From positions 310,001 through 374,000 of the forward strand of contig NZ_FMWG01000001.1 of NCBI RefSeq assembly GCF_900102795.1: a stretch of DNA of 64,000 bases, given 5' to 3'. This stretch comes from Epibacterium ulvae. Its GTDB lineage: Bacteria; Pseudomonadota; Alphaproteobacteria; Rhodobacterales; Rhodobacteraceae. Under the pieces are notes generated by a model. That model saw only the letters and a list, made by a program, of their open reading frames with translations. It was not told the DNA's origin and made no database searches. Both the position numbers and the translations under genes were made by a program. The first letter of the stretch is position 1. Each line of letters opens with the position of its first letter. Positions 20,801 through 45,694 of the stretch are shown in pieces.

Positions 20801-20841
20801 CCGCAACCGTGTCTATTGCTGAATGTTCAGCTTGTTATCAA

Positions 20842-21927: not shown

Positions 21928-22052
21928 TGATGCGAACCAATTCGGGCTGTTTCGCACTTGCGTCACAGTTTTGCCAGTTTGATACTATCTATTAAGATAA
22001 GGTCAGAACTTGCACTGACTTTCTAGTCACTTTGAACGAATTGAGTCGTCTC

Positions 22053-24683: not shown

Positions 24684-24850
24684 TGATGCCTCTTAACTTT
24701 ATCTCTGCGCAGGCTATGGCTTGCATTGCAGAGGGTCAATTTGCAACCACGGTATCATACGGATATTGCGGCTTATTTTAAGCCTAGCCCTTTGCAGATG
24801 GCTCTGGGGCGGGTAGCTTGAGCTTATGATGGACTGTAGGAGCCTTGTCG

Positions 24851-26056
24851 GTGAAGATTGCTTATGTTTTGAACACCTATCCGCAGCCGTCTCATAGTTT
24901 TATCCGTAGAGAATTACATGCCTTAGAGCGGCAAGGGATAGATATTTTACGCCTGCCTATGCGTGCTGCGACCGTGCCGCTTGTCGATCCAGACGATCAG
25001 CTGGAGGCCACGCGGTGTGAATATGTATTGCAAGCAGGCCTACTGCGTTTGCTGTTGGCTTTGTGTTTACAAGCCAAACAGCCCAAACGCCTCTGGAACA
25101 GTCTCAAATTGGCCTTGTCTCTGGGGGGGCGCTCCGATGTTAGCCGGTTGCGTCACCTGATTTACTTGCTCGAAGCTGCATATGTAAAAGAAAGCTGCGC
25201 GGCCTGGGGTGTGCAGCATGTGCATGCGCATTTTGGAACCAATGCAACGGCTGTTGCCATGCTGGTGCAAGAGCTTGGTGGGCCAAGTTATAGTTTTACC
25301 ACCCACGGTCCCGAGGAGTTTGACGCACCACATGCCCTGTCGTTGGGAGAAAAGATCAACCGATCAGCTTTTGCTGTCGCGATTAGCAGTTTTGGGCGCA
25401 GCCAGTTGAGCCGCTGGGCAGACTTTGGCAGCTGGCAACGTTTGAACGTGGTCCACTGTGGCATTGAACCCGCACGATTTTCCGAACCAAAACCGCTGCC
25501 AAAGGGAGATTTGCGCATCGTTGCCATTGGCCGGTTCGTCGAGCAAAAAGGTCAGATGATCTTGATTCAGGCCTTGGCGGAAGTGGTTAAAACCCATCCA
25601 GAAATTCACTTGTCGTTGGTTGGAGATGGTGAAATGCGCCCAGATCTGGAGCGTGCTATTGCCGCAAAAAAGCTGCAAGATCATGTAACTTTGACGGGCT
25701 GGCTGGCCGAAGAAGGTGTGCGCGCTGAACTTGCAAAGTCACACGCGCTTGTTATGCCTTCCTTCGCGGAAGGTCTTCCAATGGTGGTGATGGAAGCAAT
25801 GGCCGCTGCCCGACCTGTCGTTGCCACCTATGTGGCAGGCACGCCTGAGCTGGTTCAACAGGAAGAAACGGGTTGGCTTGTCCCCGCAGGTGATCCGATT
25901 GTTCTGGCGGATGCCTTGAAACAGTTGGCTGGAACTTCACATGAGATGCTTGAAAAGATAGGGCAGCAGGGGCGGTTGCGGGTTTTACAACGTCATGACA
26001 GTGACGTCGAAGCCGCAAAACTGGCTGCTTTATTTCGAAACCACCTCAGCAGTTAA
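24851..26056 (+). CDS. Glycosyltransferase family 4 (GT-B fold), exopolysaccharide synthesis
   Basis: 401 residues from GTG 24851, chosen because GGAG lies eight bases upstream; TTG 24845 is too close to it. The N-terminal motif is MKIAYVLNTYPQPSHSFIRREL. The C-terminal GT-B donor-site motifs are IGRFVEQKGQMILIQAL and the E-x7-E loop in SFAEGLPMVVMEAMAAARPVVAT. It resembles WcaL/AmsK-type transferases. It probably adds a hexose from an NDP-sugar to the lipid-linked repeat in the cytosol. Its TAA and the convergent gene's stop share TTAA at 26053-26056. Confidence 0.88.
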   Translation: MKIAYVLNTYPQPSHSFIRRELHALERQGIDILRLPMRAATVPLVDPDDQLEATRCEYVLQAGLLRLLLALCLQAKQPKRLWNSLKLALSLGGRSDVSRLRHLIYLLEAAYVKESCAAWGVQHVHAHFGTNATAVAMLVQELGGPSYSFTTHGPEEFDAPHALSLGEKINRSAFAVAISSFGRSQLSRWADFGSWQRLNVVHCGIEPARFSEPKPLPKGDLRIVAIGRFVEQKGQMILIQALAEVVKTHPEIHLSLVGDGEMRPDLERAIAAKKLQDHVTLTGWLAEEGVRAELAKSHALVMPSFAEGLPMVVMEAMAAARPVVATYVAGTPELVQQEETGWLVPAGDPIVLADALKQLAGTSHEMLEKIGQQGRLRVLQRHDSDVEAAKLAALFRNHLSS

Positions 26057-26886
26057 CGCCCGCGCGCCCATGTGTTGGTGCTGCGAAACAAAGATGTTTT
26101 CACCGCAAGGCTAACGACAAGGTAGGCGAGAAATGCAAAGGGGCGCTGACATAACAGCTTCAATAGAAGTGTTGCTGAAGGACTATGTTTGTCTTCGTTT
26201 TTAAAGAGCTCAGGGAAATTTGCGCTAAGCTGTGCCACGCCTGCATTTTGTCGCCGCCGCACACGGACCAGATTGCGAAACCCTTCGACCAGCGGCCAGC
26301 TATATGTGGCGGGCACGCAAATGCGTTCTTCTGGTGCAAAGTTCAATCGGGCAAATGTATCATCCGCGATAATGTCTGGCCAGTCTGCCCAACGTGCACG
26401 CCCTGTGCGGTTCATCGCAAACAGGCCAAACCCCGGAACCCCCGTCGTGTAAAAAGGTAAGTTTTGCCACAAACGGCCATATGCATTTGAAAAATGGGTG
26501 ATATTTTGTGCCAATACAGGTCTGCCAGAGCCATAGCGCGGGGTGTCACCTGCAAGCGATTGATATAATTGTGGCAACAGATCCGGACTGACGCGCACGT
26601 CTGCATCTAGATAAACCAGCACATCGCCCTGCGCAGCATGATCTCCAACTGTCAGCGCTGCAAGTTTGCCACCTGTTTCTTGTTCTAAAACGGTGATCTT
26701 CCAACGGCCTGATCCAGCAACAGCGCGCGCGATTTCGGCCGTCTCATCCGTGCATCCATTTGCAAGGACCAGAATTTCGGCGCAAACGCCCTTGGGTAAA
26801 GGCGTACTGTTCAACACTGCAGCGAGGCAGTCTGAAATTTCCGCAGCCTCATTGTGGGCCGGGATCAGTACTGAAAGCTGCGTCAT
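26053..26886 (-). CDS. Glycosyltransferase family 2, last gene of the PKS/NRPS operon
   Basis: 277 residues. GT-A fold: SVLIPAHNEAAEISDCLAAVL, VLANGCTDETAEIA, the DXD motif YLDADVRVSPDLLPQLY and DDTFARLNFAPEERICV. A hydrophobic C-terminal segment (FAFLAYLVVSLAV) may anchor it to the membrane. Its start overlaps the SGNH/GH fusion gene by 4 nt, placing it at the end of the seven-gene coupled operon. The acceptor is unknown. Confidence 0.87.
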   Translation of the reverse strand: MTQLSVLIPAHNEAAEISDCLAAVLNSTPLPKGVCAEILVLANGCTDETAEIARAVAGSGRWKITVLEQETGGKLAALTVGDHAAQGDVLVYLDADVRVSPDLLPQLYQSLAGDTPRYGSGRPVLAQNITHFSNAYGRLWQNLPFYTTGVPGFGLFAMNRTGRARWADWPDIIADDTFARLNFAPEERICVPATYSWPLVEGFRNLVRVRRRQNAGVAQLSANFPELFKNEDKHSPSATLLLKLLCQRPFAFLAYLVVSLAVKTSLFRSTNTWARGR

Positions 26887-29408
26887 TTTGCGGCCTCAAT
26901 TGCGGTCCAGCGTGGGTTTTGATCTGTAAGACTGCGCAGCGCACCCCAGCTGCCCCATTTGCTGGGTGTGTAAACATCAGCATAAGCAGCAAAGAGCTGA
27001 CCACCCGCAGCTTTCCAACCTCGTAGCAGCTCTTGATATAGGGTTCCCATTTCTGCGGTATAGTTGAAATGGGTGAAAAACGCGGTGAGGTTTTCGTCTT
27101 CGACGTTGCTGCCCACACCCACGACATGGCTGCCGCCTTCATACATGATCAGATCCAGATCATATTGTGCAGCGATCTCCACATGATAGGGCAGAATACG
27201 GTCCAGAAAATCTGCTAATGTATCGGCTTCGTCCCCCGAAATGAGCCCATCTCTGAGTTCGATTTGCGCCTGTGCGCTGGCCACATCAAATTGATGTTTT
27301 TGAAGGAAATCAAACAGAGCTTTTCCGTTTAACCCCTTAGCGCGCCCTATTTCTTGGGCATGTTGTCGGCTATCAGAAATCCATGCGCGCACCACGTCGG
27401 CATATTCTGTACGCCCTAGGACGCCGCCAAAATATCCAGTAATAGCATAGGCATCAAAATAGTGATGAGGTTCGCGCCGATCTGCACGTTCCGCTTTCCA
27501 AAGAGGAGCTTTGAGCACGTCTTGCTCTAAGCCCAGCCAACCGGTTTGTGTTGATATGACCCGGACAAGCCGTGTCATATCGTCTGCAAAGATCTCACTC
27601 CAGATTTCGGCCATCTCAGCGGCGCGACCACCATTGAACTGCATCCACAGGTTTTCGCCACTCCAGTGGTTTTGGGCTTGTTGTTCTGCCCACTGTGCTT
27701 GAGTGAACTGCCAATTCCAGACCTCGTTGGAAAACTCAACATAGGCCGTCAGATCTGGATCAAGCAGCTGATGGGTCAGACGCGCGAAATTTCGCATGTA
27801 ACTGTCGTCGCTCATATGCGGCATGGACACCCATGGATCAGCCTTTAAACGGTTTGACAGTTCCATCAGGATTTCTGCCGGTACCCCTGCGCGTGCCCAG
27901 GTGTAGTCGGTGGCCAACGGGCGATCCTCCCAGCCGACCTGTGATGAATCGTTGATGTCCATCCAATCCATAAACCGGAGTGTCGTAAATCCGTCCAGCA
28001 GTTTGAGCCATCTTGGGTTGAACGTCTGCCCATTTGCGTAAAGATCGATATGCTCTTGTTTTACAACGCTGATATCGCGAATGTAATCGCCTGTTCCACG
28101 ACGGTCCGTGCGCTGAATGCGAATGTCGACAAAGCCGGGGCCAGGGGTGAAATCAAACCAGATCTCGCCATTACCGTAGCGTACATTTTCAGCGCGCCCC
28201 GTGACTTCAAGAATACCGTCACCAGAATATTGCAATCTGTACCGACCGGCGAGACTGCGTGCATCTTCGGGGAGGTCTGTCAAAAAGACCGTGCCGATAG
28301 AGCCGAGTTCTGGCGGAATAGAGGTGGGCCAGCCGTTGGGGTCCAGATATCCTGCGGCGCTCAGATCAGCTTCTTCAACCCCTCCCCATTGTCCCGCAAT
28401 ATGCCCGATCCAGGGGCGTGTGGTTTTGAAATGATCCAGAAAGGGCGCTTGTGGTGACCAATCTGCAATTGGAGACAGGTTCATTGCCATAGGTTGCCGG
28501 TAGTCGGCGACCGGCGCAGCTGCTGGAACCTCTTCTGGCAGGAAAGCATTTAAACCAAAATGTGGGGGATCATCAGGTAGCGAACGGACCGCTGATGGCA
28601 AAACGGTGCGGCGTGTGTCATTGCGCGCCGCGCGTTCGGCGATCTCTTGCAAGCGGGCTGCAAGTTCGGCTGAAGGTGCTGGGTACGCCTCGCCCCAGCG
28701 GTTTTTTAGGGCAGCAGGCAGCCCAACTGGGCTGTGCCCGGTCAGTGTTGCGTATTGAAACAGGCTGATAAAATAAAAACCCAGCGGGTTAGGGTGTATG
28801 TCATCCACAAACATGTCGTTTATGCTGTTTACACCCGGGACCGTACCCGCGGTGATGGCATCATCTAGCCGGGCCATTGCCTGCCCTGCTTTTAGCAGTT
28901 GAATATCACCGCCGGTCAATTCGCGTGCTTGTGTGACGGCGGCTTCCCACTTGGGCAAGTCACTTTCCAGGCGTTCCCGCCAGGGCGTGCCCATGCCATC
29001 ATCAAAAGGGATCGGCGTGCCCGTTCCACTGTTCAGGCTGTGCCAAGTTTCTTGCACATAGAAGGTCACATCAGGATTGCCAGTGCGGGCGATCTCATAA
29101 AATTGGGCGATCGCATCGGCGGTGCCGCTCCATTTGAGATGATTGTCGAGCGGGATCGCTTCCGTCACGATCACAGTATCCACGCCTTGGGGCAGTCGCT
29201 CGCGTGCATTGATCCCTTCAGCTTGGTCAGCGTGGGTCCAATTGTAGCTCAGCGGGGCGCCATTGATAATCTGCGCGTCCACTTTTGGCTGGACTTCTAT
29301 GCCCGGCGTTTCAGCAAGCAGTTGTTCCAGCATCGGTGGATTGTCTGGACCAAACAAAGAATGGCCAACAAAAACCACAGATGTGATGAGCGTATTCAGG
29401 TCCATCAA
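26883..29408 (-). CDS. SGNH-like domain fused to a clan-A glycoside-hydrolase-like domain
   Basis: 841 residues. The N-terminal part (1-235) resembles an SGNH/GDSL fold: GHSLFG with Ser17 as candidate nucleophile and DDIHPN with Asp202/His205. It is clearly paralogous to the whole upstream 304-aa protein (shared ETWHSL/ETWHNL, AGQ-MA, GHSPVG/HRSPVG). The C-terminal part (about 455-841) looks like a TIM-barrel hydrolase with the acid/base pair Asn561-Glu562 in VEFSNEVWNW and candidate nucleophile Glu757 in MYEGGSH; a small beta-rich region lies between. No signal peptide is visible, the GHS strand starting at residue 12. It could de-acylate or transfer acyl groups and trim a glycan; substrate unknown. 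It overlaps both neighbours by 4 nt. Confidence 0.7.
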   Translation of the reverse strand: MMDLNTLITSVVFVGHSLFGPDNPPMLEQLLAETPGIEVQPKVDAQIINGAPLSYNWTHADQAEGINARERLPQGVDTVIVTEAIPLDNHLKWSGTADAIAQFYEIARTGNPDVTFYVQETWHSLNSGTGTPIPFDDGMGTPWRERLESDLPKWEAAVTQARELTGGDIQLLKAGQAMARLDDAITAGTVPGVNSINDMFVDDIHPNPLGFYFISLFQYATLTGHSPVGLPAALKNRWGEAYPAPSAELAARLQEIAERAARNDTRRTVLPSAVRSLPDDPPHFGLNAFLPEEVPAAAPVADYRQPMAMNLSPIADWSPQAPFLDHFKTTRPWIGHIAGQWGGVEEADLSAAGYLDPNGWPTSIPPELGSIGTVFLTDLPEDARSLAGRYRLQYSGDGILEVTGRAENVRYGNGEIWFDFTPGPGFVDIRIQRTDRRGTGDYIRDISVVKQEHIDLYANGQTFNPRWLKLLDGFTTLRFMDWMDINDSSQVGWEDRPLATDYTWARAGVPAEILMELSNRLKADPWVSMPHMSDDSYMRNFARLTHQLLDPDLTAYVEFSNEVWNWQFTQAQWAEQQAQNHWSGENLWMQFNGGRAAEMAEIWSEIFADDMTRLVRVISTQTGWLGLEQDVLKAPLWKAERADRREPHHYFDAYAITGYFGGVLGRTEYADVVRAWISDSRQHAQEIGRAKGLNGKALFDFLQKHQFDVASAQAQIELRDGLISGDEADTLADFLDRILPYHVEIAAQYDLDLIMYEGGSHVVGVGSNVEDENLTAFFTHFNYTAEMGTLYQELLRGWKAAGGQLFAAYADVYTPSKWGSWGALRSLTDQNPRWTAIEAAK

Positions 29409-30319
29409 CTCTCCTTTTGGGGATCAAGCCCTGTGCGTTGTGTCGTTTTTACGACATGCCAGACGATCTGTTGAATTTGCTGCGCTGCAGTCTCGCTGAA
29501 AGCGTCTGCTTCTGTCCCATCTTTCCGTTTCAGCAAATGTGGTCGGCCAACCGGTGAGCGATGATAGAGGACGGAATAGTGCGTCAGCGTAACAATATAA
29601 CGGCCGAGATCGTTGATGTGAATTGTATCAAGGCTGCCGTCAGCCTTGCGTTCAAACAGCTGGTCTCGTCGTGTCAGCCCATCAATCTGGCCAGATTCAG
29701 CAGCCCGCACAACCGCTGCCATCACTTGCCCCGCCGGAATGAGATAGACCGGATGATCTGGATTGCGACGGCTGTCAGATCCAAGCACCTGCCTTAACCA
29801 GAGCTTTTCAAGATCATGATCAATGCGTTCCAGCCATCCCGTAGGGTCGTCTAAATTGTGCCAGGTCTCATAAAGATAGATACGGGTTTGCGCATTGCCG
29901 CCACGAGCCAGATTGGCCCAGCGGCGCATATATCGCGCGCTGTTAAAATAGCGGATCGCGTCGCGTAACTCGACCATTTCCGTAAGCACAACAGCGTCAT
30001 AGTCACCAGATCCAATTGCGTCACGAGCAGCGCGAAATCTGGGCGTCGCATTGGTGGTGTCAAAGTCTAATATTTCAATATCAGGCTCCCAATGCGCTTT
30101 TAGGGATGTCCCTGATCCAAGTTGCGCGTGCCAGTTATGCGCTTCAGGTGCAAGCTGGGCCAGCATATGCGGCATTTCCAGACTGACAAGGGAATGACCA
30201 AGGTGAAAGACATTCAGGCCGTGTTCAGGTGCCTGCAAGGTTGGAACGGTAAAGGGGGCAGCCTGTGCCGCGAATGGCAGAAATGCAAAGAAAGACAAGA
30301 GACTGCGACGTGTCATCAT
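29405..30319 (-). CDS. Exported SGNH-like protein with twin-arginine-type leader
   Basis: 304 residues. The N-terminus MMTRRSLLSFFAFLPFAAQA has a twin-arginine-like motif and an AxA cleavage site. The mature part has GHSLVSLEMPHML with Ser43, VVLTEMVELRD, LYETWHNL and DTIHINDLGRY with Asp231/His234, fitting blocks I and V of an SGNH hydrolase though GDS is replaced by GHS. It matches the N-terminal domain of the next gene in motif order and spacing. It lies 2 nt after the phosphopantetheinyl transferase gene. It may be an esterase or acyltransferase acting on the exported product; this is inferred. Confidence 0.7.
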   Translation of the reverse strand: MMTRRSLLSFFAFLPFAAQAAPFTVPTLQAPEHGLNVFHLGHSLVSLEMPHMLAQLAPEAHNWHAQLGSGTSLKAHWEPDIEILDFDTTNATPRFRAARDAIGSGDYDAVVLTEMVELRDAIRYFNSARYMRRWANLARGGNAQTRIYLYETWHNLDDPTGWLERIDHDLEKLWLRQVLGSDSRRNPDHPVYLIPAGQVMAAVVRAAESGQIDGLTRRDQLFERKADGSLDTIHINDLGRYIVTLTHYSVLYHRSPVGRPHLLKRKDGTEADAFSETAAQQIQQIVWHVVKTTQRTGLDPQKES

Positions 30320-30321
30320 TT

Positions 30322-31011
30322 CTATGTCCTCAGTTCGGCCATGGTGACAATCACTCCAGCTCCGATCGCAAAGCGCCCGGAAATTTGATCACCCTTTTGA
30401 AACGGCGCTCTGTCTTGCGTAAAGCTTGCAACAAAGCTCGTATCAGATAACTTGATCTCAACTCGCATTCCATCAAAGCCAAAGAAAGCGTCGCTGATAA
30501 GATATTGGCATTTATAAGCGGCTTCTTTAGCTGAGAAAATAACTTTGGCCAGCTGACCGGGATTGTCTTGCTGTAATAGCCAATCTTGTTCTGTGTCTAA
30601 ACAAATTGCAGGCCACAGATCCCGTTTCAAAGGCGTGTCTTCCTCGACATCCACACCAATTCCGCTCCATTCTGTAGCGGGGGCGACCACGGCCATTGCA
30701 CAGGTTTTCGTATGGCTAATTGATCCAACCACCCCTGTCGGCCACTGCGGTGCACGTGATGGAGCAACAGGGATCGGTTGAGCGGTGATGCCAAGGTCGC
30801 GCATTGCCTGATGTGCTGCTGCACGCCCAGCCGCAAATTCAGCCCGGCGCTTTGGAACCGCTTTGGATGACAAACACGCAAGCTCTTCCGGAAAAGGAGC
30901 TGGTAGGGTGTCGTGTGGCTCCGTGACCGCCAGCCCAATTTTGTCATCAAACAAAGGACGTATCAGCGTATGGCGTTCTTTCGTCCGCGTGCTGGAGTAG
31001 GTCAGCGACAT
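30322..31011 (-). CDS. 4'-phosphopantetheinyl transferase (EntD/Sfp superfamily)
   Basis: 229 residues. The magnesium and CoA-binding signatures are intact: GIGVDVEED (Asp121, Glu123) and FSAKEAAYK (Glu163, Lys167), with GSISHT upstream. It transfers phosphopantetheine from CoA to the serine of carrier domains. Its ATG overlaps the NRPS stop (TGATG), so it is the dedicated activator of the carrier domains of the NRPS (Ser1443) and PKS (Ser1797) in the same operon. Confidence 0.95.
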   Translation of the reverse strand: MSLTYSSTRTKERHTLIRPLFDDKIGLAVTEPHDTLPAPFPEELACLSSKAVPKRRAEFAAGRAAAHQAMRDLGITAQPIPVAPSRAPQWPTGVVGSISHTKTCAMAVVAPATEWSGIGVDVEEDTPLKRDLWPAICLDTEQDWLLQQDNPGQLAKVIFSAKEAAYKCQYLISDAFFGFDGMRVEIKLSDTSFVASFTQDRAPFQKGDQISGRFAIGAGVIVTMAELRT

Positions 31012-34000
31012 CAGGCGCGGGCTTTGCGATTGGCCCGCATCGCGCGACGTTTCGACATTGTTTCGCTACGGGCAGCATGTTCAGCTGTGTTTGTTTCTGC
31101 CGCGTTTTTCGTCGTTTGAGGATCACCCGACAGGTCTTGCAGATGTGTCGCCAGCCCCGACAATGTCGGGAAGCGGAAAATATCGGTGATGGACAGGCTC
31201 TGCAGGTGAAGTTCGGCACGTATGTCGCGGTGTGCTTGAACGGCAAGCAAAGAATGCCCGCCAAGTGCAAAGAAATTATCCTCAGCACCAATGCTTTCTA
31301 CGCCTAAAATTCGGCTCCAGATATTGGCAATTTTTGCTTCGTACCCTGTACTTGGCTCCGCGGGGATGCTGTTACGCGTGCGCGCTGGTTTGGGATCCGG
31401 CAAAGCTTTGCGATCAATTTTTTTGTTCGGAGTCAGGGGGAAGGCTTCTAATGTCACGATGTGACTTGGCACCATAACGTCTGCCAATCGGGTGTTTAAT
31501 GCGTGTTTCAAAGCCTCTTCTTGGATGGCTGCATCGGCGGTGATGTAGCCAATCAGCTTGTCATCGTTGCCAAGTTTGCGGGCAATGACAACAGCACCGG
31601 ACACGCCTTGCTGATCGGCCAATGCGGCCTCAATCTCTCCCAGCTCAATACGCTGTCCACGGATTTTGACCTGATGGTCAGTGCGGCCCAGAAAATCCAG
31701 ACGCCCATCTTCGCGCCAGCGGACCAGATCACCTGTGCGATAGAAGGTTCCCGGGTGCGCCGCGACCTTTGCAAAACGTTCTGCGGTCAGTTCTTCGCGC
31801 TGCCAGTATCCGGCGGTCACACCTGCGCCACCAATAAGCAACTCGCCCGGTGCCCCGATGGGTTGGGGGATCCCTTGAGAATCCAGAACCAAAACAGATG
31901 TATTTGCAATTGGCGTGCCGATATCGGCGATCCCTTTGGGCACATCGCTGATGGTTTGAACGGTGGACCAGATCGTTGTCTCGGTCGGTCCATACATGTT
32001 GTGCAGTTTTGCAGAGGTTGCTGCATGAAGGCTTTGAACCAAATCGCCGGGGAGCGCTTCACCGCCCACCATCAGATGTTGCAAGGTGCCAAGAGCCGCT
32101 GCAGCATTGTCATCCGCTGCAATCATACGTGCCATCGACGGAGTGCATTGCATATGCGTGATCCGATGGCGCAGCAGTTGTGCGGCCAGTGAATAATCGT
32201 CTTCTGCAAGCGCTTGTGGCGCGTTTGACAGGCGAAGCACCTCTGCGAGCGGGGCCAACCCGTCCAACACAACATCCGGTGCGATCCCGTAGTCGATCAA
32301 ACATGCAACCTCATCGACACCAATACGTTTCAGCGCATCAACACGGGTCACGGCATCCTGCACTGTGCCAAACAGACCAGAATCTTCAAAATACCGCTCA
32401 AAGGCAAAGTCGAGAATAGACTCAAGTTCCTCGCCAGACAGGCTGCCAAGATCGACGTCCATAGGATTATTGGCACCCTCAGGGCGTTTAAACGCGGGGA
32501 AAGCCCAAGCGTATTGCTTAATCAATCCAGCTGCAGAGCGCAGGTAATCTTTCATCGGTTCGCGTGCGATCTGACGCGCTGTTTCACGATCAGCGGCCAG
32601 ATAGGTATGTAGCATCAACGTCACTTTGAAACCGGCAGGATCATATCCGGCATCGCGCAGGGCCTGATGGTAGATTTTGATCTTTTCGCCGACTTCTTCA
32701 ATGCTTTGCCCCAATAGGTGGGTCAGGACGTTGGCACCAATCCGTCCAGCCTCACGCCAGGTCTCAGGATTGCCGGCAGTTGTCACCCAGACCGGCAGCT
32801 CTTTTGAGACCGGGCGTGGTTGCGACAAAACACTATGAGTGCTGCCATCCTTGCGGGGGAAGGCCACGTGCTCACCACGCCAGAGTTTGCGCACGGTTTC
32901 GATGCTCTCAAACAAGGCGGGTTTGTTTGCAGGCGGTGTGTTTTCAGGACGTAGGATGAAATCGTCCGGCTGCCAACCCGACGCAAAACCAATTCCAGCG
33001 CGCCCATTGGTGAGATTGTCAATCACCGCCCATTCTTCAGCGATACGTGCCGCATGATGAAGCGGCGCGACACAGGAACCGGCACGCACACCAATATTCT
33101 GCGTGACCGCAGCCACAGCCGCGCCAGTTACAGACGGATTGGGGTAGGGGCCACCAAAGGCATGGAAATGGCGTTCGGGTGTCCAAACAGCATTAAAACC
33201 GTGTTGGTCCGCAAATTTGGCACCTTCCAGCAAAAGTTCATATTTCTTAGGACCAGCGCCGTCATCATTGCCCCAGTAAAACAGATTAAAGTCCATTTTC
33301 CGGTCTGTTTGGCGAATGGGGGCATTGGAAAGCTGCAAGCGACTTTCATCACTGGAGAGAACCAGTTTGAATCCGCGAGATAGCGTCCAGAACAGTTCCA
33401 GCACAGAGATGTCAAAGGACAAACTTGTCACAGCAAGCCAGCTGTCACCTGCCTGATGGGGGATGCGTTGATCCATGCCAGCAAAGAAGTTGGCTACATT
33501 TGAATGACGCACCATGACGCCCTTGGGCAAGCCGGTCGATCCAGACGTGTAGATCAGATAGGCCAGCGTGTTGCCGCTCGCGTCACTTGTAACGTTTGTC
33601 GCGTCGCTCAGATCTAACTGATCAACCTCCAGCACTTTTGCGCTATGTACTGGGAGCTTATCCTTAAGTGCGGATTGTGAAAGGATAACCTTGGCACCAC
33701 AGTCTGAGATAAAATGCGCAATACGGTCGGCTGGATAGGCCGGATCGAGGGGTACATACGCACCGCCTGCCTTTAAGACCCCCAGCGCTGCAATCACCAG
33801 ATCTGGTGAGCGGCGTACGTAAATACCAACCGGATCTCCAGCGCAGACGCCTTCGGTCTGAAGTTTGCGTGCCAGATCATTCGCACGCGCATTCAGACTG
33901 CTATAGCTCAGCGTCTCACCTTCAAAGACCAAGGCTGTTGCGTCAGGTGTCCGTGCGACTTGCGCTTCAAATGCAGCATGAATGGTCTGATCTGCATCAA

Positions 34001-35579: not shown

Positions 35580-36583
35580 TTTTGCTCCTTCGCAACGGGA
35601 ATGAAACGTGTCTGTGGTCGAGGTATACGCCGCGATACGCCGCGCAGCATATGGGTCAAAAGATCACGAGTGAAGTGGTCGGGTTCGACCTGTGGCTTGC
35701 CTTCGATCAGACGGCGCAAACCATAAAGCGCTCCCCCTGCAAACCGTGCAAGATCGGCGAGTATCGCATAGGCGCGGCCATGTGTTTTAACAAAATAATA
35801 ATGGCGCGCCTCAAACCAGTATTGGGGCGTGCGTTGCCATTTCTTCATTCCTGTTGACACAGACCCAACATGCGCAATCTTGCTCTCTGGTACATAGTAG
35901 GTGTTCCATCCAGACTGCGCGGCGCGATGACATAATTCGGTCTCTTCAAAATACAAAAAGAAGGTTTCATCAAAACCATCGATTGCCTCGATCATATCGC
36001 GCCGCAGCATAAGGCTTGCGCCCGCAGTCCAATCTACGCGACATGTGGTTTGGGGAAGATCCATAGCGACGACTGAGTGTCGCAAAACACGGGTGATGAC
36101 CCCTGTTCGCGCCGCTCCTTCAAACTCTCCCGCGATGGTGGGAAAACGAAAGGCTGTCGTATGGGGCACGCCATCGGTGCCATGCACGTAAGACCCGGCG
36201 AGACCCGCATCTGTTTGGGTTGCCATGAAATCCCGGAGGGTTGAGATGGTGTTGATTTCAGGGAACGCATCAGAGTTCTGCAGGTAATAATAATCCGGTG
36301 TGGTGCCATCAGAAAACCCGGCACGCAGGCCTACGTTCATGCCCGCGCCAAACCCACCATTGACCGGCGACTGAAGAACACGCAGATGATTGTCTTTGCA
36401 CCACCCTGCCTTTTCAGCGGCGGTTTGGATCTCCTCAAAAGAGCCATCACCAGAATTATTGTCAATGATAACGATTTCACCATCAACATGCCGCATCGCG
36501 CCAACAGCGGCTTTGGCTGCGCGCAACGTCATCTGGGGCGTTTTATAGTTCAAAATGATGGTAAGAACGCGATTGTCTGGCAC
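35576..36583 (-). CDS. Glycosyltransferase family 2 (rhamnosyltransferase-like) between the PKS and NRPS genes
   Basis: 335 residues. GT-A motifs: TIILNYKTPQMTLRAAKA, IVIIDNNSGDGS, GGFGAGMNVGLRAG, YYLQNSDAF (DXD equivalent) and FLYFEETELCHRAAQSGW (ED-W catalytic region), as in WbbL/RfbF-like transferases. It starts 4 nt after the PKS stop and overlaps the NRPS start by ATGA. Being locked between the two megasynthases, it probably glycosylates their product or builds its sugar acceptor; the donor is unknown. Confidence 0.88.
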   Translation of the reverse strand: MPDNRVLTIILNYKTPQMTLRAAKAAVGAMRHVDGEIVIIDNNSGDGSFEEIQTAAEKAGWCKDNHLRVLQSPVNGGFGAGMNVGLRAGFSDGTTPDYYYLQNSDAFPEINTISTLRDFMATQTDAGLAGSYVHGTDGVPHTTAFRFPTIAGEFEGAARTGVITRVLRHSVVAMDLPQTTCRVDWTAGASLMLRRDMIEAIDGFDETFFLYFEETELCHRAAQSGWNTYYVPESKIAHVGSVSTGMKKWQRTPQYWFEARHYYFVKTHGRAYAILADLARFAGGALYGLRRLIEGKPQVEPDHFTRDLLTHMLRGVSRRIPRPQTRFIPVAKEQK

Positions 36584-36587
36584 TGTG

Positions 36588-39500
36588 TTACTCCGCCGCG
36601 GTCGCGGTTTGGCTATGATCTTCTATAGGCTGTTCTGCGTGGTCCAGAATATGTTTCACCTCTGATGCCAATACGCTCACATTGGGAACAAGAACCATAC
36701 TGTCATGGTTTCCGGGCACCTCAATGACTTCGACGTTTGGCGCCCAGCGGGTCCAATCGTTGTCTGCAAATACATATTCCCGCGCTTGGCTGATCCATTG
36801 ACCGCCCGATACCTTCCAAGAATGATCCAAGGGCGGACGCAGCAACGTCATCGAGCCATTCCAAGGGCGCAGCTCATAGCTCTCAAGCGCTGCGCGGAAG
36901 GCCAGTTCAATCTTGCGATTGTTGAACGCGGGTTTTTCCCCCGTTTCAGCGGGCTTGTCTCGGCGCTTTTCAATCTCCCACACAATTCGGTTGCGGGCCC
37001 ATTGTGCAAAATAGGCGGGCCCTTTGCTGCGGATTTCTTGCAGTTTGATGAGTGCTTTGTCTTGCTTCGTTAGTTCTGGACGCAGCGGAAGCGGGGTGTC
37101 CAAGAGGATTAAAGCAGCTGTTTTGTTGCCCTGCGCCTCTAGCTGCTGGGCCATTTCATAGGCTGTTAACCCACCGCCAGAGAACCCACCCAACAGATAT
37201 GGACCCTCAGGTTGAACCTGTTGAATTTCAGCCAGATAATCCGTCGCGGCTTCAGTTAGGCTATCATGCGGGGTGTCTTCGCCGATCAATCCTTTGGCCT
37301 GAATGCCATAGATGGGGCGGTCTTTTCCAAGCAAAAGTGCAAGATGGCGCAGGTTTAAGACATTCCCAAACATGCCCGCGACAAGGAAAAAGGGCGTTGT
37401 TCCCCGACCATTTCCAGGATGAAGCAACACAAGATGTTTGTGCGCTTCTTCTTCCTGTGTTGCTGTTTGGTCTGTGCCCGCGTCTTGCAGTACGGGTTTT
37501 GGGCCATGGGCTTCGATTTTCTTCGCAAGGGCGGCAACGGTGGGAGCCTCAAATAAGACGGACATGGGGAATTCCACATCCAGTCGCCGCTTGATCTGTG
37601 CGAACAGGCGCACAGCAACAAGCGAGTGTCCCCCCAGATCAAAGAAACTGTCGTCCACCCCGATTTTCGACACGCCTAATAGGGACGAGAACAGCTCGGC
37701 AAGAACCTCCTCAACTGGAGTGCGTGGCGCAACAAAGGCCGCGTCCAGCTGCGGGCGCTCAAAGCTTTGCTGCTTACTTTCCGCGTGTGTGCTTTGCCCC
37801 GCTTGTGCAATCATTGCGTCAAGATCAAGGGATGATACCAAGACCTGCGCGCGCCCCGTGGCCAGCGCACGCTCCAGCGCTTTTGGGCCTTCTGTGGCGC
37901 GAATACCGTTTTGCAGGTTGTATTGCAGCCTTTGTTCGTCCGCAGATAGGGGGGGCACATGTCCGGGTTCCGCAAGGCCAATCTCTGCGGCTGTGGTGTC
38001 AGCACTTGCATCCTGTGCAAGCGCAAAGCCCTCTGCAAGGCGCTTCATCTGGAAGGTTTCGATCTCAACCAGAACACGGCCATCTGCTGCACAGAGCGAG
38101 ATGTCAAACTGCGCAAATTCACCTTCTTGGCTGTCTACCAGCCGCATATGACTGCAGATTTCTGCTTCAAGGGGGCCAAAGACACGGATGTCACCGTATG
38201 ACACTGGCACCCAGAGCGATTTTGTATTGTATCCCGGAACCAGATCCAACGCCCAGCCTGTTGCAAGATCCATTAATCCAGGGTGCAACAGGCAAGCGTC
38301 CTCTTTCGCAGTTTTGGAAAGCGCCAGTCGGGCAAGCCCTTCTTCGGTGCCTCGCGCGCAATGTGTCAGAACGTGCCAACGCGGGCCGAATGCAAGATGC
38401 GCCTCTTGGGGTGAGGTCAGACGGCCCGCCACCGGTGCCTGCACCACGGGGCACCGCGTGGACACTTCGGTCAGATCAACAGGTTTTGGTGTGTTGGGGA
38501 TGTTGAGCGTGATCTGTGCCTCTGCGATGCGTTGATAGCCATCGCTGGCTTTGCCAAACAGGCCCACGGCATATCCGTTTGCGGCATCTTCAAACCGCAA
38601 GATCAGTTCACGGCTTTCCCCCTCTGGCACCACGAAAGCACGCAGGAAGTAGAGATCACTCAATGAGAAGCCAGTCTCAATGCCAAAATCACGTAGCGCC
38701 TCTGAGATGAGCGTGATCATTCCGGTGCCCGGCAACAGCGCAACACCCGACCGTGTTCGATGTTCGTCGATTATCCAGTCTGTCCCACTAAACGTGGTCC
38801 GATAGTATCGATTTCCAAGCGCATCAAAGCCGCGTTCATCCAGCAATGCCATATCGCATGTTTCAAGTGCAGCAGGGCTTTGTGTCCCAAGGCGTGCGGT
38901 CATCGCATCCGAGGCCATGCCGACATCACTCCAGATCCCCCAGTCGATTGCCATCACACGGGTGCTTTTGTTTGAACGTGATTGCGCCCAGGCGTTCAGG
39001 TAGTCGTTTGCCGCGATATAGTCGGCTTGCCCTGCCGGATGCGTTGCTGTCGATGAAGAGGAACACAGCAGCAGCAATTCTAAACTGCCATCTTCAAACA
39101 AATCGTCCAACACACGCAGACCATTCACCTTTGGCGCAAGAACCTGTGCCATTTGCTCTTCGGTTTTGGCGAGGAGCGGCGTGTCATCAATATGGCCAGC
39201 ACTGTGGATCAGACCGGTGAGTTTTCCAAAACGGGCTTCAACGGCCTCTTTGACATTACGCATCTGCCCAATGTTGCAGACATCTGCGGCGTATTGCGCA
39301 ACGGTGCCTTTTCCAATCTCTTCAAGGGCTCGCATCGCTTTGATGCGCTGGGCCGTTTTATTCGCTTGGCCATGGCTTGCCAGATAAGCGTCCCAGTTTT
39401 CCTCCAAAGGAAGCCCATCACGCGACACCAATACGACATTGGCGTTGTAGGTTTCCATAAGGTGTGCCGCGAGGGTCCGACCAATGCCACCAAAACCACC

Positions 39501-42500
39501 TGTGATCAGATACGTGCCTTGCTGTTTGAACTGCGGTGCGATGTCTTTTGGCAGAGGGCGTGGGCGCCACCCTTGCTCAAACCGCTGTGCGCCTCGCCAT
39601 ACCGCGCGCGCAGCAGGTGTTTCAGCATAAAGCTCTTCTAACAGACGTTCGGTGATCTCATCGCTGCGTTCTCCGCGCAGAATCTGCCACATAGCGGGGG
39701 CGGGGGGCAGTTCAATATCGATCTGGCTGCACGTGACATCCGGCAACTCGCGCGGCATCACACCCAATGGGCCAGAAATCATCGATTTCTCAGGGTGCAA
39801 CAGGGGCTCGTCTCGGGTTTGTGCTGCGCCAGTGGTAAAGACGCTGAGATGGACCGGATGTGACAACTCTGCATTCCCTAGCGCCTGCCCCAAAGCGGTC
39901 AGACCGTAAAACCCCATCTCAAGGTTGCGATCAAAGAAAGAGGAACCGGGGCGGAAGGTTTCTGCGTCTGTCACCAGCCAGAAATGCGCGATGCGATCCG
40001 GCAGGCATCTTGCCTCTGCAAGATCCGCAAAAAGCGCATCATAGCCAAAACGGCCTTGTTCCGGAGCCAGAATAAATTGGTTTTCACTGATCTGAGCATA
40101 GGTATCGCCTGGCTGGACTGTGATCACAGGGTGGCCTGCCGCGCGCAGACGTTGTGTTACCGCATTGGCGTGCCCCAGATCATCTTCAAAGATCAGCCAA
40201 GTGTGTGCAACGTCGCCCAATTCCGTCGCGATATCAATTTCACAATCTGCCAGCGCCGGTCGCCAGCTGGGGCGATACCCCCAATCTGTGATGTCTTCAT
40301 GGCGTGCGGGCAGAGTGTCTTCGGGGCGATCTTTTTGCGCTCCTGGTTCGATAAAGTAGCGGCTGCGCTGAAAGGCATAGGTGGGCAATGGCAGCCGATG
40401 ACGCTTGGCCTCTCCCCAGATTTGGCTCCAGTCGGCTTCTACGCCGCAGGCCCATAGGCGCCCGATCATACCAAAGAAATAGCTATCATCCATGATGTCT
40501 TGATCGGGATGACGCAGTGAGGACAGGACTTGACCGGAATTGACCGAAGGCGCCATTTGCGCCAGTGAGCTGAGCGCTTTTCCGGGGCCAACTTCCAAGT
40601 ATACCCGCCCCTTTGTGGTCGAAAGCGCTTCAATACAATCAGCAAACAACACGGTGTTGCGCAACTGGGCGACCCAATAGTCGGGGTCTGTTGCCTCTGT
40701 ATCGCTCAGCACCGCGCCCGTTCGGTTGGACTGAATGGGCAGGTTTGGCGCTTGCAAGTTCAGACGCCGCAGGAAAGTGCCGTATTCCTCCAGAATGACA
40801 TCCAACATACGACTATGGGCTGCAATATCGATGTTGATACGCTGATGGTCTATCTCTTGTGTTGTCAGAACCTTAGAAAGCGCATCCAGCGCGGCTTGAG
40901 GCCCTGACACAGCCGTAAGCCCCGGTGCGTTGACGCTGGCAATATCCAGATCATCGCCAATCATGGCCTCAACTTCGGGCAGCGAAAGTGAGATCGACAG
41001 CATCCCACCTGCGGGCATTTTGTCAAACAAACGCCCACGCAGCAGGACCAGATCTATACAGTCTTCAAAGGACAGCACCCCGGCCAGACAGGCAGCTGTG
41101 TTCTCCCCCATGGAGTGGCCAACAAGGGCTGCAGGCTTTACGCCCCAGCTCATCCAAAGCTGTGCAAGGGCGTATTCCACAATCATGATCAACGGCAATT
41201 GCGCGGATGGTTTTTGCAAAGCTTTGTTTGCGGCCTCTGCGCCACCGTCTTCAGGTAACCAAAGCGCACGGATATCGTAATCCAGTTGCGGTTGCAGATG
41301 GTTCAGGCCCCGGTCCATCCATTCAGCAAAGACAGGTTCTGTTTCATAAAGATCCTGCGCCATCCCAGCGTATTGCGCACCACCACCCGGGAACATAAAC
41401 ACCACATCAGGGTTTGGGCCCAGATGGTCATGGGTAAAGACTTCGCGTGGATTTAGCTCCTTTAGTGCTGCTGCAGCTTCAACTGCCGTTTCGGCGACCA
41501 CGACACGACGTTTGGCGAAACCGCGACGCCCCTCTTTCAGGGTAAAGGCCACATCTGCCAGATCCAGATCCGGATTTTGGCGCAAATGGGTCGCAAGGGC
41601 AGTGGTGTTAGCCTCAAGCGCGGCTTTGGACTGCGCTGACAGGCACAAGATATGAAAGGGGAAATCACTTTCTTCAGAGGGGCTGCGATCTGGTGCTTCT
41701 TCCAAAATGGCATGGGCATTGGTGCCCCCAACGCCAAGCGCATTCACGGCTCCACGACGTGGCCCCTTGTGTGAGATCCACGGCTGCAGGCGGTCATTCA
41801 CTTTAAAGGGGGATGTCTCAAAATCAATGGCAGGGTTTGGCGCTTCATACCCTAGCGACGGGGGCAAGGCTTTGTGTTTTAGTGCAAGGGCCGTTTTGGC
41901 AAGACCTGCAATCCCGGCTGCGGTGTCCAGATGGCCAATATTGGTTTTGACAGACCCCACCTTGCAATACCCCACATCGGATGTGGTCGCGCGATAGGCA
42001 TCCGTAAGAGCTGAAATTTCAATTGGATCCCCAAGGTAGGTTCCGGTGCCATGGCATTCGACATGGTCGATCGTGTCAGGTGTGACATCTGCAGCCTTTA
42101 AGGCTGCTTGCACTGCCTTGACCTGACCACCCACTGATGGCGCAAGATATCCAGCTTTGTCAGCCCCATCATTGTTGATGGCAGATCCTTTGATGACGGC
42201 CCAGATGTGATCGCCATCCGCAATCGCATCTTCCAAACGGCGCAGTGCAACAGCACCGGCGCCTGAGCCAAAAACGGTCCCCTGCGCCCGGTGATCAAAG
42301 GCATGGCACTGCCCATCAGGCGACAGGATTTCGTTTTCTTTGTAAAGGTATCCACGATCTTGCGGCAGCTCAATTGTGACCCCACCAGCAAGCGCCATAT
42401 CGCATTCCTGGTCGTTCAGCGCTTTGCAGGCGTAATGCACAGCCACAAGCGAGGTTGAACAGGCAGTTTGAACATTGACGGATGGCCCCTGCAGATCAAA

Positions 42501-43013
42501 GACGTGGCTGACCCGCGTGGTCAGGAAATCCTTGTCATTGCCCGTGTGGCGCAGCAGGAACATGCCCACATCATCAACCATGTCAGGGTTTGAACAGATG
42601 TTGAAATAGAAATAGCTGCCCATGCCGCAACCTGCATAGACGCCAACACGTCCGCCAAGACTTTCAGGCGGGTGTCCGGCCTGTTCCATGGCCTCCCATG
42701 CCACCTCAAGGAATTTGCGGTGTTGCGGGTCTAAAATGGCGGCTTCTTTTGGAGAAAAGCCGAAGAAATCTGCATCAAAAGTATCAAATCCCTCAAGACG
42801 TGCAGCAGCCGGGACATAGTTGGGATCGGCCAACAGGGCCGCACGTTCTCCGCTGGCCGCTAAAATCTCTTTGTCCAGTGTTTCAATGGAGCCGATACCG
42901 TTCTTGAGATTGTCCCAATAGGTCGCGGCGCTGTCTGCACCGGGAACAGCAACCGAAAGGCCAACGATGGCAATGTCACCAGACCCGTGCGTTGTGGTTT
43001 TGTCTGCTGTCAT
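36588..43013 (-). CDS. Type I polyketide synthase: KS-AT-KR-DH-like-ACP-TE
   Basis: 2141 residues. KS (about 12-440): active Cys185 in VQTACSTSLVAVH, His321 in ECHGTGT, His361 in KTNIGHLD. AT (about 537-885): Ser634 in GHSMGE, with AAHS at 731-734, so malonyl versus methylmalonyl is undecided. KR (about 1165-1365): GGFGGIG (1172-1178) and Tyr1332/Asn1336. Next a dehydratase-like double hotdog (about 1408-1660) with His1418 and Asp1582, but H-x4-G instead of H-x3-G and DLATG instead of DxxxQ. ACP Ser1797 in GGHSL. Thioesterase (about 1870-2125) with Ser1945 (GFSGGG), Asp1972, His2103. KR before DH is the reverse of the common order. First gene of a seven-gene coupled operon. Confidence 0.95.
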   Translation of the reverse strand: MTADKTTTHGSGDIAIVGLSVAVPGADSAATYWDNLKNGIGSIETLDKEILAASGERAALLADPNYVPAAARLEGFDTFDADFFGFSPKEAAILDPQHRKFLEVAWEAMEQAGHPPESLGGRVGVYAGCGMGSYFYFNICSNPDMVDDVGMFLLRHTGNDKDFLTTRVSHVFDLQGPSVNVQTACSTSLVAVHYACKALNDQECDMALAGGVTIELPQDRGYLYKENEILSPDGQCHAFDHRAQGTVFGSGAGAVALRRLEDAIADGDHIWAVIKGSAINNDGADKAGYLAPSVGGQVKAVQAALKAADVTPDTIDHVECHGTGTYLGDPIEISALTDAYRATTSDVGYCKVGSVKTNIGHLDTAAGIAGLAKTALALKHKALPPSLGYEAPNPAIDFETSPFKVNDRLQPWISHKGPRRGAVNALGVGGTNAHAILEEAPDRSPSEESDFPFHILCLSAQSKAALEANTTALATHLRQNPDLDLADVAFTLKEGRRGFAKRRVVVAETAVEAAAALKELNPREVFTHDHLGPNPDVVFMFPGGGAQYAGMAQDLYETEPVFAEWMDRGLNHLQPQLDYDIRALWLPEDGGAEAANKALQKPSAQLPLIMIVEYALAQLWMSWGVKPAALVGHSMGENTAACLAGVLSFEDCIDLVLLRGRLFDKMPAGGMLSISLSLPEVEAMIGDDLDIASVNAPGLTAVSGPQAALDALSKVLTTQEIDHQRINIDIAAHSRMLDVILEEYGTFLRRLNLQAPNLPIQSNRTGAVLSDTEATDPDYWVAQLRNTVLFADCIEALSTTKGRVYLEVGPGKALSSLAQMAPSVNSGQVLSSLRHPDQDIMDDSYFFGMIGRLWACGVEADWSQIWGEAKRHRLPLPTYAFQRSRYFIEPGAQKDRPEDTLPARHEDITDWGYRPSWRPALADCEIDIATELGDVAHTWLIFEDDLGHANAVTQRLRAAGHPVITVQPGDTYAQISENQFILAPEQGRFGYDALFADLAEARCLPDRIAHFWLVTDAETFRPGSSFFDRNLEMGFYGLTALGQALGNAELSHPVHLSVFTTGAAQTRDEPLLHPEKSMISGPLGVMPRELPDVTCSQIDIELPPAPAMWQILRGERSDEITERLLEELYAETPAARAVWRGAQRFEQGWRPRPLPKDIAPQFKQQGTYLITGGFGGIGRTLAAHLMETYNANVVLVSRDGLPLEENWDAYLASHGQANKTAQRIKAMRALEEIGKGTVAQYAADVCNIGQMRNVKEAVEARFGKLTGLIHSAGHIDDTPLLAKTEEQMAQVLAPKVNGLRVLDDLFEDGSLELLLLCSSSSTATHPAGQADYIAANDYLNAWAQSRSNKSTRVMAIDWGIWSDVGMASDAMTARLGTQSPAALETCDMALLDERGFDALGNRYYRTTFSGTDWIIDEHRTRSGVALLPGTGMITLISEALRDFGIETGFSLSDLYFLRAFVVPEGESRELILRFEDAANGYAVGLFGKASDGYQRIAEAQITLNIPNTPKPVDLTEVSTRCPVVQAPVAGRLTSPQEAHLAFGPRWHVLTHCARGTEEGLARLALSKTAKEDACLLHPGLMDLATGWALDLVPGYNTKSLWVPVSYGDIRVFGPLEAEICSHMRLVDSQEGEFAQFDISLCAADGRVLVEIETFQMKRLAEGFALAQDASADTTAAEIGLAEPGHVPPLSADEQRLQYNLQNGIRATEGPKALERALATGRAQVLVSSLDLDAMIAQAGQSTHAESKQQSFERPQLDAAFVAPRTPVEEVLAELFSSLLGVSKIGVDDSFFDLGGHSLVAVRLFAQIKRRLDVEFPMSVLFEAPTVAALAKKIEAHGPKPVLQDAGTDQTATQEEEAHKHLVLLHPGNGRGTTPFFLVAGMFGNVLNLRHLALLLGKDRPIYGIQAKGLIGEDTPHDSLTEAATDYLAEIQQVQPEGPYLLGGFSGGGLTAYEMAQQLEAQGNKTAALILLDTPLPLRPELTKQDKALIKLQEIRSKGPAYFAQWARNRIVWEIEKRRDKPAETGEKPAFNNRKIELAFRAALESYELRPWNGSMTLLRPPLDHSWKVSGGQWISQAREYVFADNDWTRWAPNVEVIEVPGNHDSMVLVPNVSVLASEVKHILDHAEQPIEDHSQTATAAE

Positions 43014-44733: not shown

Positions 44734-44896
44734 GCGCTACAGGCGTATCTTTGTCATCTGTTAATTTATCCAGTTTCTCGTATCTGTCACGAACCATACT
44801 TAATTGGCTTTGTGAATGCGTCACCTTTGTGTTGTCCTATTAAGGCCTCATTTTGGCGTGAAGTGGTTAAGCGTGGGGCGTTAAGGAGTGGGCAAC

Positions 44897-45694
44897 GTGC
44901 AATTTTGCTTTGGTAAACGCAGCGTATATGTGAATTTCGCAACCTATGATGCTTTGCAGCAAGAAGTCATTGATCGCTTCAAGGCGCGCGCTGGCTTCTC
45001 TTTGGCCACGATCAATCTGGACCATCTGGTGAAGCTGTCGGCCTCAGACAGCTACTTGTCGACCTATCTTTCGCAGGATCTTGTTGTTGCTGATGGGCGC
45101 CCCATTGTTTGGCTGTCAAAGCTTGCGGGATGTCCTGTGGAGCTTATGCCGGGGTCTGATATGGTCGAACCTCTGTGTCGTTGGGCCGCTGCTGCTGGTG
45201 TTTCCGTGGCCTTTGTTGGCAGCACCCAAACAGCGCTTGCAGATGCTGAGCGTATCCTGGCTGCGCGGGTGCCGGGGTTAAACGTGGCCTGGACACATGC
45301 GCCGGGGCGTTTGGATCCTGAAAGCGTTGAGGTCAGCGAGATCTTAGATGAGCTTGCAGCGCGGAATATTGGTTTGTGTTTTCTAGCGCTTGGTGCGCCC
45401 AAACAGGAACGTATCGCCCAACGTGGACGCGAACGTGCGCCGCATGTCGGATTTGCCTCGGTCGGCGCAGGTCTGGATTTTTTTGGTGGCCACCAACGCC
45501 GTGCTCCACTTTGGGTCAGGCGGCTTGCATTGGAATGGCTTTGGCGCGCGCTGAGTAGCCCACTGCGCCTTGGACCGCGATATCTCAAATGTATTGCCAT
45601 TTTGCCGCGTCTTGTTGTGGATGCCTGTAAGCTAAGACGTGATCCTAATTCTTATACTCCAAAATCTCCCGCGCGCGGCCCTGCCGGCGATTAA
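44897..45694 (+). CDS. WecG/TagA/CpsF family glycosyltransferase
   Basis: 265 residues from GTG 44897; AAGGAG (44883-44888) lies eight bases upstream, which excludes the in-frame GTG 44888. Family motifs: TINLDHLVKLSASDSYLS, VVADGRPIVWLSKLAG, LALGAPKQERIAQRGR and VGAGLDFFGGHQRRAPLWVRRLALEWLWR. These peripheral membrane enzymes (GT26) add N-acetylmannosamine-type or other sugars to the undecaprenyl-diphosphate-linked intermediate. The 3' end overlaps the convergent glycosyltransferase gene by 50 bp. Confidence 0.92.
   Translation: MQFCFGKRSVYVNFATYDALQQEVIDRFKARAGFSLATINLDHLVKLSASDSYLSTYLSQDLVVADGRPIVWLSKLAGCPVELMPGSDMVEPLCRWAAAAGVSVAFVGSTQTALADAERILAARVPGLNVAWTHAPGRLDPESVEVSEILDELAARNIGLCFLALGAPKQERIAQRGRERAPHVGFASVGAGLDFFGGHQRRAPLWVRRLALEWLWRALSSPLRLGPRYLKCIAILPRLVVDACKLRRDPNSYTPKSPARGPAGD

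Follow-up and report, generated by a model that had tools for sequence, protein, structure and literature searches.

Why does an exopolysaccharide locus of Epibacterium ulvae carry genes for a nonribosomal peptide synthetase (NRPS) and a polyketide synthase (PKS)? The locus lies in a stretch of 64,000 nucleotides (nt) of contig NZ_FMWG01000001.1 (positions 310,001 to 374,000), which we call the window and to which all coordinates below refer. Seven tightly spaced open reading frames run there on the minus strand from 43013 to 26053 in the direction of transcription. In the order 5' to 3', they encode a PKS, a GT2-family glycosyltransferase (GTa), an NRPS, a 4'-phosphopantetheinyl transferase (PPTase), an SGNH-like protein, a protein with SGNH-like and glycoside hydrolase (GH)-like parts, and a second GT2-family glycosyltransferase (GTb). 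We compared this gene group with related loci. The comparison leads us to think that a Wzx/Wzy-type exopolysaccharide locus probably has its own NRPS-PKS assembly line, making a short acyl group that would be covalently put on the polysaccharide. The most likely acceptor would be the lipid-linked repeat unit, at a stage prior to its flipping by Wzx.

A conserved PKS-GT2-NRPS core

Our order-level sample comprised 292 genomes, all of the family of the window (Rhodobacteraceae) and drawn evenly from a larger group. A relative of the NRPS (E ≤ 1e-100) was found in 125 of them, representing 50 of 112 genera and always with one per genome; two of these matches begin only at residue 363 or 387. The GTa gene lies directly 5' of the NRPS gene in 121 of the 125 NRPS-positive genomes, that is, on the same contig and strand with a gap between the match ends of -100 to 400 bases. 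In the four exceptions, it was found on another contig (two genomes) or had moved a few kb off and onto the opposite strand (two genomes). The NRPS-negative genomes G043 and G235 had no listed place and stand outside the placement list, which does not affect this count.

Gene neighborhoods (two pieces, up to 40 kb) were compared for 30 hand-chosen NRPS-positive genomes, with hardly any genus represented more than once; 28 of these belong to the order, and the other two are G571 and G629. Neighborhood counts were obtained by tblastn with the window proteins (E ≤ 1e-8). PKS, GT2, and NRPS genes occur in this order in 27 of the 28 neighborhoods, with the PPTase gene immediately next in 24, and likewise in 78 of 80 named loci, many of which have short flanks. 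The initial annotation had treated all seven genes as one unit. Coordinates bear out its description of a minus-strand cluster with six tight junctions, ranging from a 4-nt overlap to a 4-nt gap, but the full order recurs in only 8 of the 28 neighborhoods and 19 of the 80 named loci. We therefore rejected the seven genes as a conserved system; the conserved unit is PKS-GT2-NRPS, usually with the PPTase.

Two arrangements of the locus were distinguished. In the first, which is that of the window, a Wzy gene is followed by PKS-GT2-NRPS-PPTase-SGNH-SGNH/GH-GT2 and then by Wzx, while in the second the SGNH/GH, GT2, and Wzx genes are found ahead of the PKS gene. On a quickly built tree of 118 NRPS rows, the arrangements are clustered (21 changes versus a shuffled mean of 64). 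The junctions between PKS, GT2, and NRPS genes also lie within 14 nt on plasmids of Parasedimentitalea, Paracoccus, and Ruegeria. A plasmid of Paracoccus liaowanqingii carries another NRPS gene (L111:1-1614) close to the cassette, adjacent to a WecG gene.

The cassette is associated with polysaccharide genes

The window itself holds the genes of a Wzx/Wzy-dependent exopolysaccharide locus. Pfam searches detected an initiating sugar transferase, a flippase, a chain-length protein, glycosyltransferases, and a polymerase (weak), so that the embedding proposed in the initial annotation, with ExoY, Wzz, Wzx, Wzy-like, and WecG-type neighbors, held up. A relative of the window flippase (E ≤ 1e-60) is present in 130 of the 292 genomes, as a single match in 128 of them. 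It was found in 112 of the 125 NRPS-positive versus 18 of the 167 NRPS-negative genomes (odds ratio 71, Fisher p 1.6e-45, a test that ignores shared ancestry), and all 105 genomes with a flippase at least 47% identical are NRPS-positive. In 89 of the 112 genomes, the flippase and NRPS genes are at most 30 kb apart; over 94 same-contig cases, the median distance is 7.6 kb. Six polysaccharide markers were located in the 28 neighborhoods as follows: Wzx in 26, Wzz in 27, Wzc in 26, Wzy in 24, WecG in 24, and ExoY in 19, with at least three of the six in 27 neighborhoods; these counts stand without a random-window control. The ExoY type itself has 1-3 matches per genome (30 genomes). At least one of the six markers was also found in 76 of the 80 named loci.

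Thirteen NRPS-positive genomes gave no flippase match at the above threshold. Ten of these were newly fetched; nine have at least two markers and one (G136) has one, and in six of the ten a weaker flippase match was detected (E ≤ 1e-4). G155 was among the earlier neighborhoods, and G197 and G032 were left out.

The NRPS is rarer beyond the order. Among 385 alphaproteobacterial genomes, only seven matches were obtained (E ≤ 1e-150), five in the family of the window and the other two in G571 and G629. In a plasmid collection, 28 records matched at E ≤ 1e-100, with query coverage of at least 80% in 13. Those beyond the Rhodobacterales include Aminobacter, Shinella, Neorhizobium, and Rhizobium; plasmid records from Streptomyces, Burkholderia, Nostoc, Deinococcus, and Aliiroseovarius are among those matching without the formyltransferase part described below. 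A scan of genome contigs placed three loci of the betaproteobacterium Hydrogenophaga within the best 80 of 579 loci, and on the NRPS tree their rows fall among those of the Rhodobacterales. Three of the plasmid regions came without a feature table and were searched by tblastn, one of them also by Pfam. In Shinella and, as judged by tblastn, in Neorhizobium and Rhizobium grahamii, the cassette is found near flippase and sugar-transferase genes; in Aminobacter, it is surrounded by flippase, O-antigen-ligase-type, and glycosyltransferase genes; and in Hydrogenophaga, WecG and glycosyltransferase genes are close by. Judged by tblastn, G571 and Methylobacterium had appeared to lack polysaccharide genes. 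This impression was wrong: Pfam revealed DegT, an epimerase, a UDP-sugar dehydrogenase, GT4, and Wzy around the cassette of G571, and DegT, an epimerase, and a weak Wzz around that of Methylobacterium. The presence of these amino-sugar genes could mean that the acyl group forms an amide with an amino sugar. As a separate observation, a second assembly line (two adenylation domains, two carrier domains, one condensation domain, and one thioesterase) follows within 1.5 kb of the cassette in Hydrogenophaga pseudoflava (L142:18759-24764).

Several observations weigh against a link between the cassette and polysaccharide synthesis, besides the neglect of shared ancestry in the Fisher test and the missing control for the marker counts. 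Of the 112 genomes, 18 have the flippase gene on a contig other than that of the NRPS gene, and in five the two genes share a contig but are 33 kb to 1.9 Mb apart. G253 has just one marker nearby and its flippase gene on another contig. None of the six markers was found in the loci L115 (a 9.9-kb contig), L149, L153, and L171, although glycosyltransferase matches are present in L153 and L171, and the stretches of the three Hydrogenophaga loci gave no flippase match. In G629, a homologous NRPS-PKS pair (40% identity) is preceded by znuA-fur-znuC-znuB and by genes for a thiamine pyrophosphate (TPP) enzyme and a glutathione S-transferase (GST) (L096:12089-20000, L097:1-8567), and none of 11 tested flanking proteins is a polysaccharide gene product. 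Moreover, the PKS gene of Aminobacter directly adjoins a TolC-family gene, and that of Shinella has a type I secretion pair at a distance of about 3-6 kb.

The latter two cases would suit a diffusible metabolite, for example a free signal, antibiotic, or surfactant, whose genes sit among polysaccharide genes only in order to be co-regulated with growth on surfaces. A terminal thioesterase able to release a free acid fits this explanation as well, and the Phaeobacter inhibens PKS and NRPS genes Inhi_1972 and Inhi_1974, which from their two-number spacing are likely the same pair, are named in an excerpt of a paper on secondary metabolism (PMC4062626). On the other hand, co-occurrence with the flippase and synteny extend across many genera, with a similar picture in other orders and a betaproteobacterium, and in three annotated Rhodobacterales plasmid regions the flippase is the only protein annotated as an exporter beside the core. 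We therefore regard a diffusible product as unlikely. Cassettes regularly found apart from polysaccharide genes would have spoken against the initial annotation; we encountered a single clear exception, G629. Taken together, the association between the cassette and polysaccharide loci is real, deep, and wide. The part of the initial annotation that assigned the assembly line to the polysaccharide locus thus stands.

The NRPS is a formylating loading protein with an embedded monooxygenase

The NRPS (1522 amino acids [aa]; 31011-35579, minus strand) starts with a formyltransferase domain (residues ~1-290; 34710-35579; PF00551 and PF02911), followed by a linker, an adenylation (A) domain (PF00501), a peptidyl carrier protein (PCP) domain (PF00550), and a basic tail. 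This is the layout of a formylating initiation module of the LgrA type, and LgrA (linear gramicidin synthetase) is the best PDB match over the formyltransferase, A, and PCP parts. For residue counts, rows under set lengths were dropped from the alignment, leaving 118 NRPSs and 111 PKSs with at least one duplicate genome (G039 = L135). N87 and D125 of the formyltransferase are present in all 118 sequences and H89 in 117; we take these three residues to be the catalytic trio. The PCP serine is kept in all 117 NRPSs that extend to it.

The A domain is interrupted by a luciferase-like monooxygenase domain of the MupA/Atu3671 family (residues 764-1114; 32238-33290), which scores 472.8 bits against TIGR04020 (cut-off 244.45). 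It is inserted between motifs A4 and A5: A4 is located at residues 722-728, and the remainder of the A domain continues from about residue 1105. The PuwE structure 6ket matches residues 760-1114 (4e-103). The initial annotation had missed this insertion. Pfam did not detect any condensation domain, and no thioesterase is present on the NRPS. A partial condensation domain between the formyltransferase and A domains (residues 295-535), guessed from the sequence, was dropped for this reason.

Each of these features has a known counterpart in a different setting. The start of the protein is shared with LgrA, but here a monooxygenase resides within the A domain and the next partner is a PKS instead of a condensation domain. 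The A4-A5 insertion of a monooxygenase is known from the myxothiazol and melithiazol enzymes, where, according to an excerpt of PMC10204066, it acts on a glycyl residue at its alpha carbon and the foregoing chain is released as an amide. The domain layout does not agree with such a late module, since the formyltransferase comes first and the NRPS has no thioesterase and, by Pfam, no condensation domain; here, the monooxygenase follows a formyltransferase in a loading protein. MupA, the mupirocin alpha-hydroxylase, shares the TIGR04020 model but is a separate protein that alpha-hydroxylates a carrier-bound beta-keto polyketide thioester (excerpt of PMC10952193), whereas here the domain is embedded in an A domain.

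The C-terminal tail of the NRPS (31011-31076) is rich in arginine and may be a docking element. R1511 is conserved in 117 of the 118 NRPSs; a strict regular expression matched the tail of just 33. The PKS has a mildly acidic N-terminus, with a median net charge of -2 over 104 sequences. A basic NRPS tail and a mildly acidic PKS start are consistent with the NRPS acting first and the PKS second. In G571, G629, and Methylobacterium, the NRPS gene is located ahead of the PKS gene. Another NRPS-like gene with an open frame of 1351 aa was noted on a different contig of the E. ulvae genome (G000:C15:203421-206378).

A single-module PKS probably completes the line

The PKS (2141 aa; 36588-43013, minus strand) is a type I enzyme consisting of one module with a terminal thioesterase. 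According to Pfam, its domains are ketosynthase (KS), acyltransferase (AT), ketoreductase (KR), dehydratase (DH), acyl carrier protein (ACP), and thioesterase (TE); no enoylreductase was detected. The active-site residues Cys/His/His of KS, Ser/Tyr/Asn of KR, His/Asp of DH, and Ser of ACP are invariant across the 111 PKSs, and TE Ser/Asp/His are kept in all 110 that reach this region; the AT serine was outside the count. The PPTase (229 aa; 30322-31011, minus strand; PF17837 and PF01648) has a match in 26 of the 28 neighborhoods.

GTa (335 aa; 35576-36583, minus strand; PF00535) is encoded between the two assembly-line proteins. The PKS and GTa genes are separated by 4 nt, GTa overlaps the NRPS gene by 4 nt, and the NRPS and PPTase genes overlap by 1 nt. 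Pattern scans for promoters and terminators at the locus gave no excess over shuffled sequences.

Proposed pathway and product

The domain content, conserved catalytic residues, gene context, and co-occurrence described above suggest the following pathway. The PPTase would arm the PCP and ACP domains. The A domain would then load an amino acid, probably glycine. The loaded amino acid would be N-formylated by the N-terminal domain, and the embedded monooxygenase would oxidize the aminoacyl group, most likely by alpha-hydroxylation; we infer this order of the two steps. Having no thioesterase and, by Pfam, no condensation domain, the NRPS would pass the chain to the PKS, which would add one extender (malonyl or similar), followed by reduction and dehydration. 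Finally, the TE would free the acyl group or transfer it to a sugar. GTa probably acts on the sugar to which the acyl group is bound or transferred, and the completed polymer may be edited or trimmed by the SGNH-like and SGNH/GH proteins. We predict that the line yields a C4 enoyl unit carrying N-formyl and possibly also a hydroxyl at position 4.

Some details of this scheme add to the points against it. The A-domain code D-I-L-Q-(M/L)-G-M-I-W-K, which is fixed or nearly so in the 118 sequences except for one position, is close to DILQLGLIWK. The latter is presumably a glycine code; a search of the open-access literature returned no paper with this string. We abandoned the second A domain of LgrA, presumably glycine-specific, as support for glycine, because its code differs at several positions. 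The AT motif of the PKSs, AAHS, agrees neither with the malonyl nor with the methylmalonyl motif. The TE could also simply hydrolyze the product.

Still, we tentatively go one step further and suggest that the hybrid line could well be dedicated to an oxidized N-formyl-aminoacyl enoyl group, possibly electrophilic and cross-linkable, on the repeat unit of the exopolysaccharide of many Rhodobacteraceae, which would turn these "secondary-metabolite" genes of roseobacters into a cell-surface pathway.

A variant of this proposal follows myxothiazol synthesis: the monooxygenase would cleave N-formyl-alpha-hydroxyglycine, so that a glyoxylyl thioester serves as the starter and a reactive 4-oxo-enoyl group ends up on the glycan. 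This would agree with the A4-A5 insertion and with the cleavage of a glycyl residue in myxothiazol and melithiazol synthesis (excerpt of PMC10204066). But it would make the conserved formyltransferase a waste; such a domain is easier to understand if it protects a nitrogen that is retained instead of being cleaved off. We consider this variant improbable.

PKSs as such are already known from capsule loci. RkpA and WcbR, encoded in the capsule clusters rkp of rhizobia and wcb of Burkholderia, are type I PKSs in polysaccharide loci, a likeness of gene context; an excerpt of PMC3908369 mentions no partner NRPS, formyltransferase, or monooxygenase for them, whereas here a dedicated NRPS loader and a locked GT2 gene accompany the PKS. 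The E. ulvae PKS might by analogy make a lipid or glycolipid primer, that is, an anchor or carrier of the polysaccharide. Such a role has reportedly been proposed for the RkpA/WcbR type. However, one module without a detectable enoylreductase and with an amino-acid-loading partner is a poor fit for a saturated lipid, and the ExoY, Wzx, and Wzy-like genes indicate the undecaprenyl route, which makes a primer still less probable. A metallophore, in which the formyl-aminoacyl product binds a metal, is very unlikely, as it draws on the zinc-uptake-type genes ahead of the cassette in G629, a single distant member, and the three Rhodobacterales plasmid regions have no annotated metal-uptake gene next to the core.

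The downstream SGNH proteins and GTb

Three further genes of the window cluster follow the PPTase gene after a gap of 2 nt and are joined to each other by overlaps of 4 nt. The first product, the SGNH-like protein (304 aa; 29405-30319, minus strand), contains, judged by eye, GHSL and DxxH motifs and a signal-like N-terminus, so that it is probably exported; it has a match in 13 of the 28 neighborhoods. Neither this protein nor the following one (841 aa; 26883-29408, minus strand) gave a Pfam match above cut-off, and the larger one had no NCBIfam match either.

An AlphaFold model of the 841-aa protein (pLDDT 84, pTM 0.63) was compared by Foldseek and matched GDSL/SGNH esterases as well as clan GH-A glycosidases (arabinofuranosidases, GH44, GH5, and GH53), with modest E-values (best 7e-5). 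The SGNH/GH label of the initial annotation thus agrees with the model. Ser17, Asp202, His205, Glu562, and Glu757 are among the invariant columns of 28 sequences and, by analogy with SGNH and GH-A patterns, are putative catalytic residues. The GH-A-like part is a candidate for an undescribed glycosidase family. Relatives of this protein occur in 133 of the 292 genomes (E ≤ 1e-10, some of partial length), with two separate copies in some, for example G036 and G186. GTb (277 aa; 26053-26886, minus strand; PF00535) has a match in 22 of the 28 neighborhoods.

Flanking genes of the polysaccharide locus

The next gene upstream of the PKS gene on the same strand encodes the Wzy-like polymerase (43270-44733, minus strand; PF04932, E 1e-4, below cut-off) and ends 256 nt ahead of it. 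Beyond lie a WecG/TagA-type glycosyltransferase gene (44888-45694, plus strand; PF03808) and the gene for another GT2-family protein, GTc (45645-46652, minus strand; PF00535). On the other side of the cluster, we found a GT4-family glycosyltransferase (24845-26056, plus strand; PF13692 and PF00534), the Wzx flippase (23316-24683, minus strand; PF13440), the Wzz chain-length protein (22032-23315, plus strand; PF02706), a CpsD/CapB-type ATPase as Wzc partner (20737-21927, plus strand; PF01656, E 5e-5, below cut-off), and the ExoY-type initiating sugar-phosphate transferase (20024-20800, plus strand; PF02397). TamB and TamA genes border the polysaccharide locus (46649-51960); a TamB match was found in 5 of the 28 neighborhoods.

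Implications for the Rhodobacterales

Ordinary Wzx/Wzy exopolysaccharide loci share the ExoY, Wzx, Wzy-like, Wzz, WecG, and glycosyltransferase genes with the locus described here, but in the latter an NRPS-PKS line, usually together with a PPTase, is a conserved member. In the open-access literature, we found no description of a hybrid (formyl-)NRPS/PKS dedicated to exopolysaccharide, nor of this cluster. PKS and NRPS genes of roseobacters tend to be seen as a potential for bioactive products, as in an excerpt of PMC4062626. If our proposal is true, the cassette carried by 125 of the 292 sampled Rhodobacterales genomes makes a surface-glycan decoration and not a bioactive product. It would then represent a new kind of polysaccharide modification and a new setting for the chemistry of formyl-NRPSs and luciferase-like monooxygenases, and would provide a handle on the surface properties of the Rhodobacterales, perhaps including attachment.

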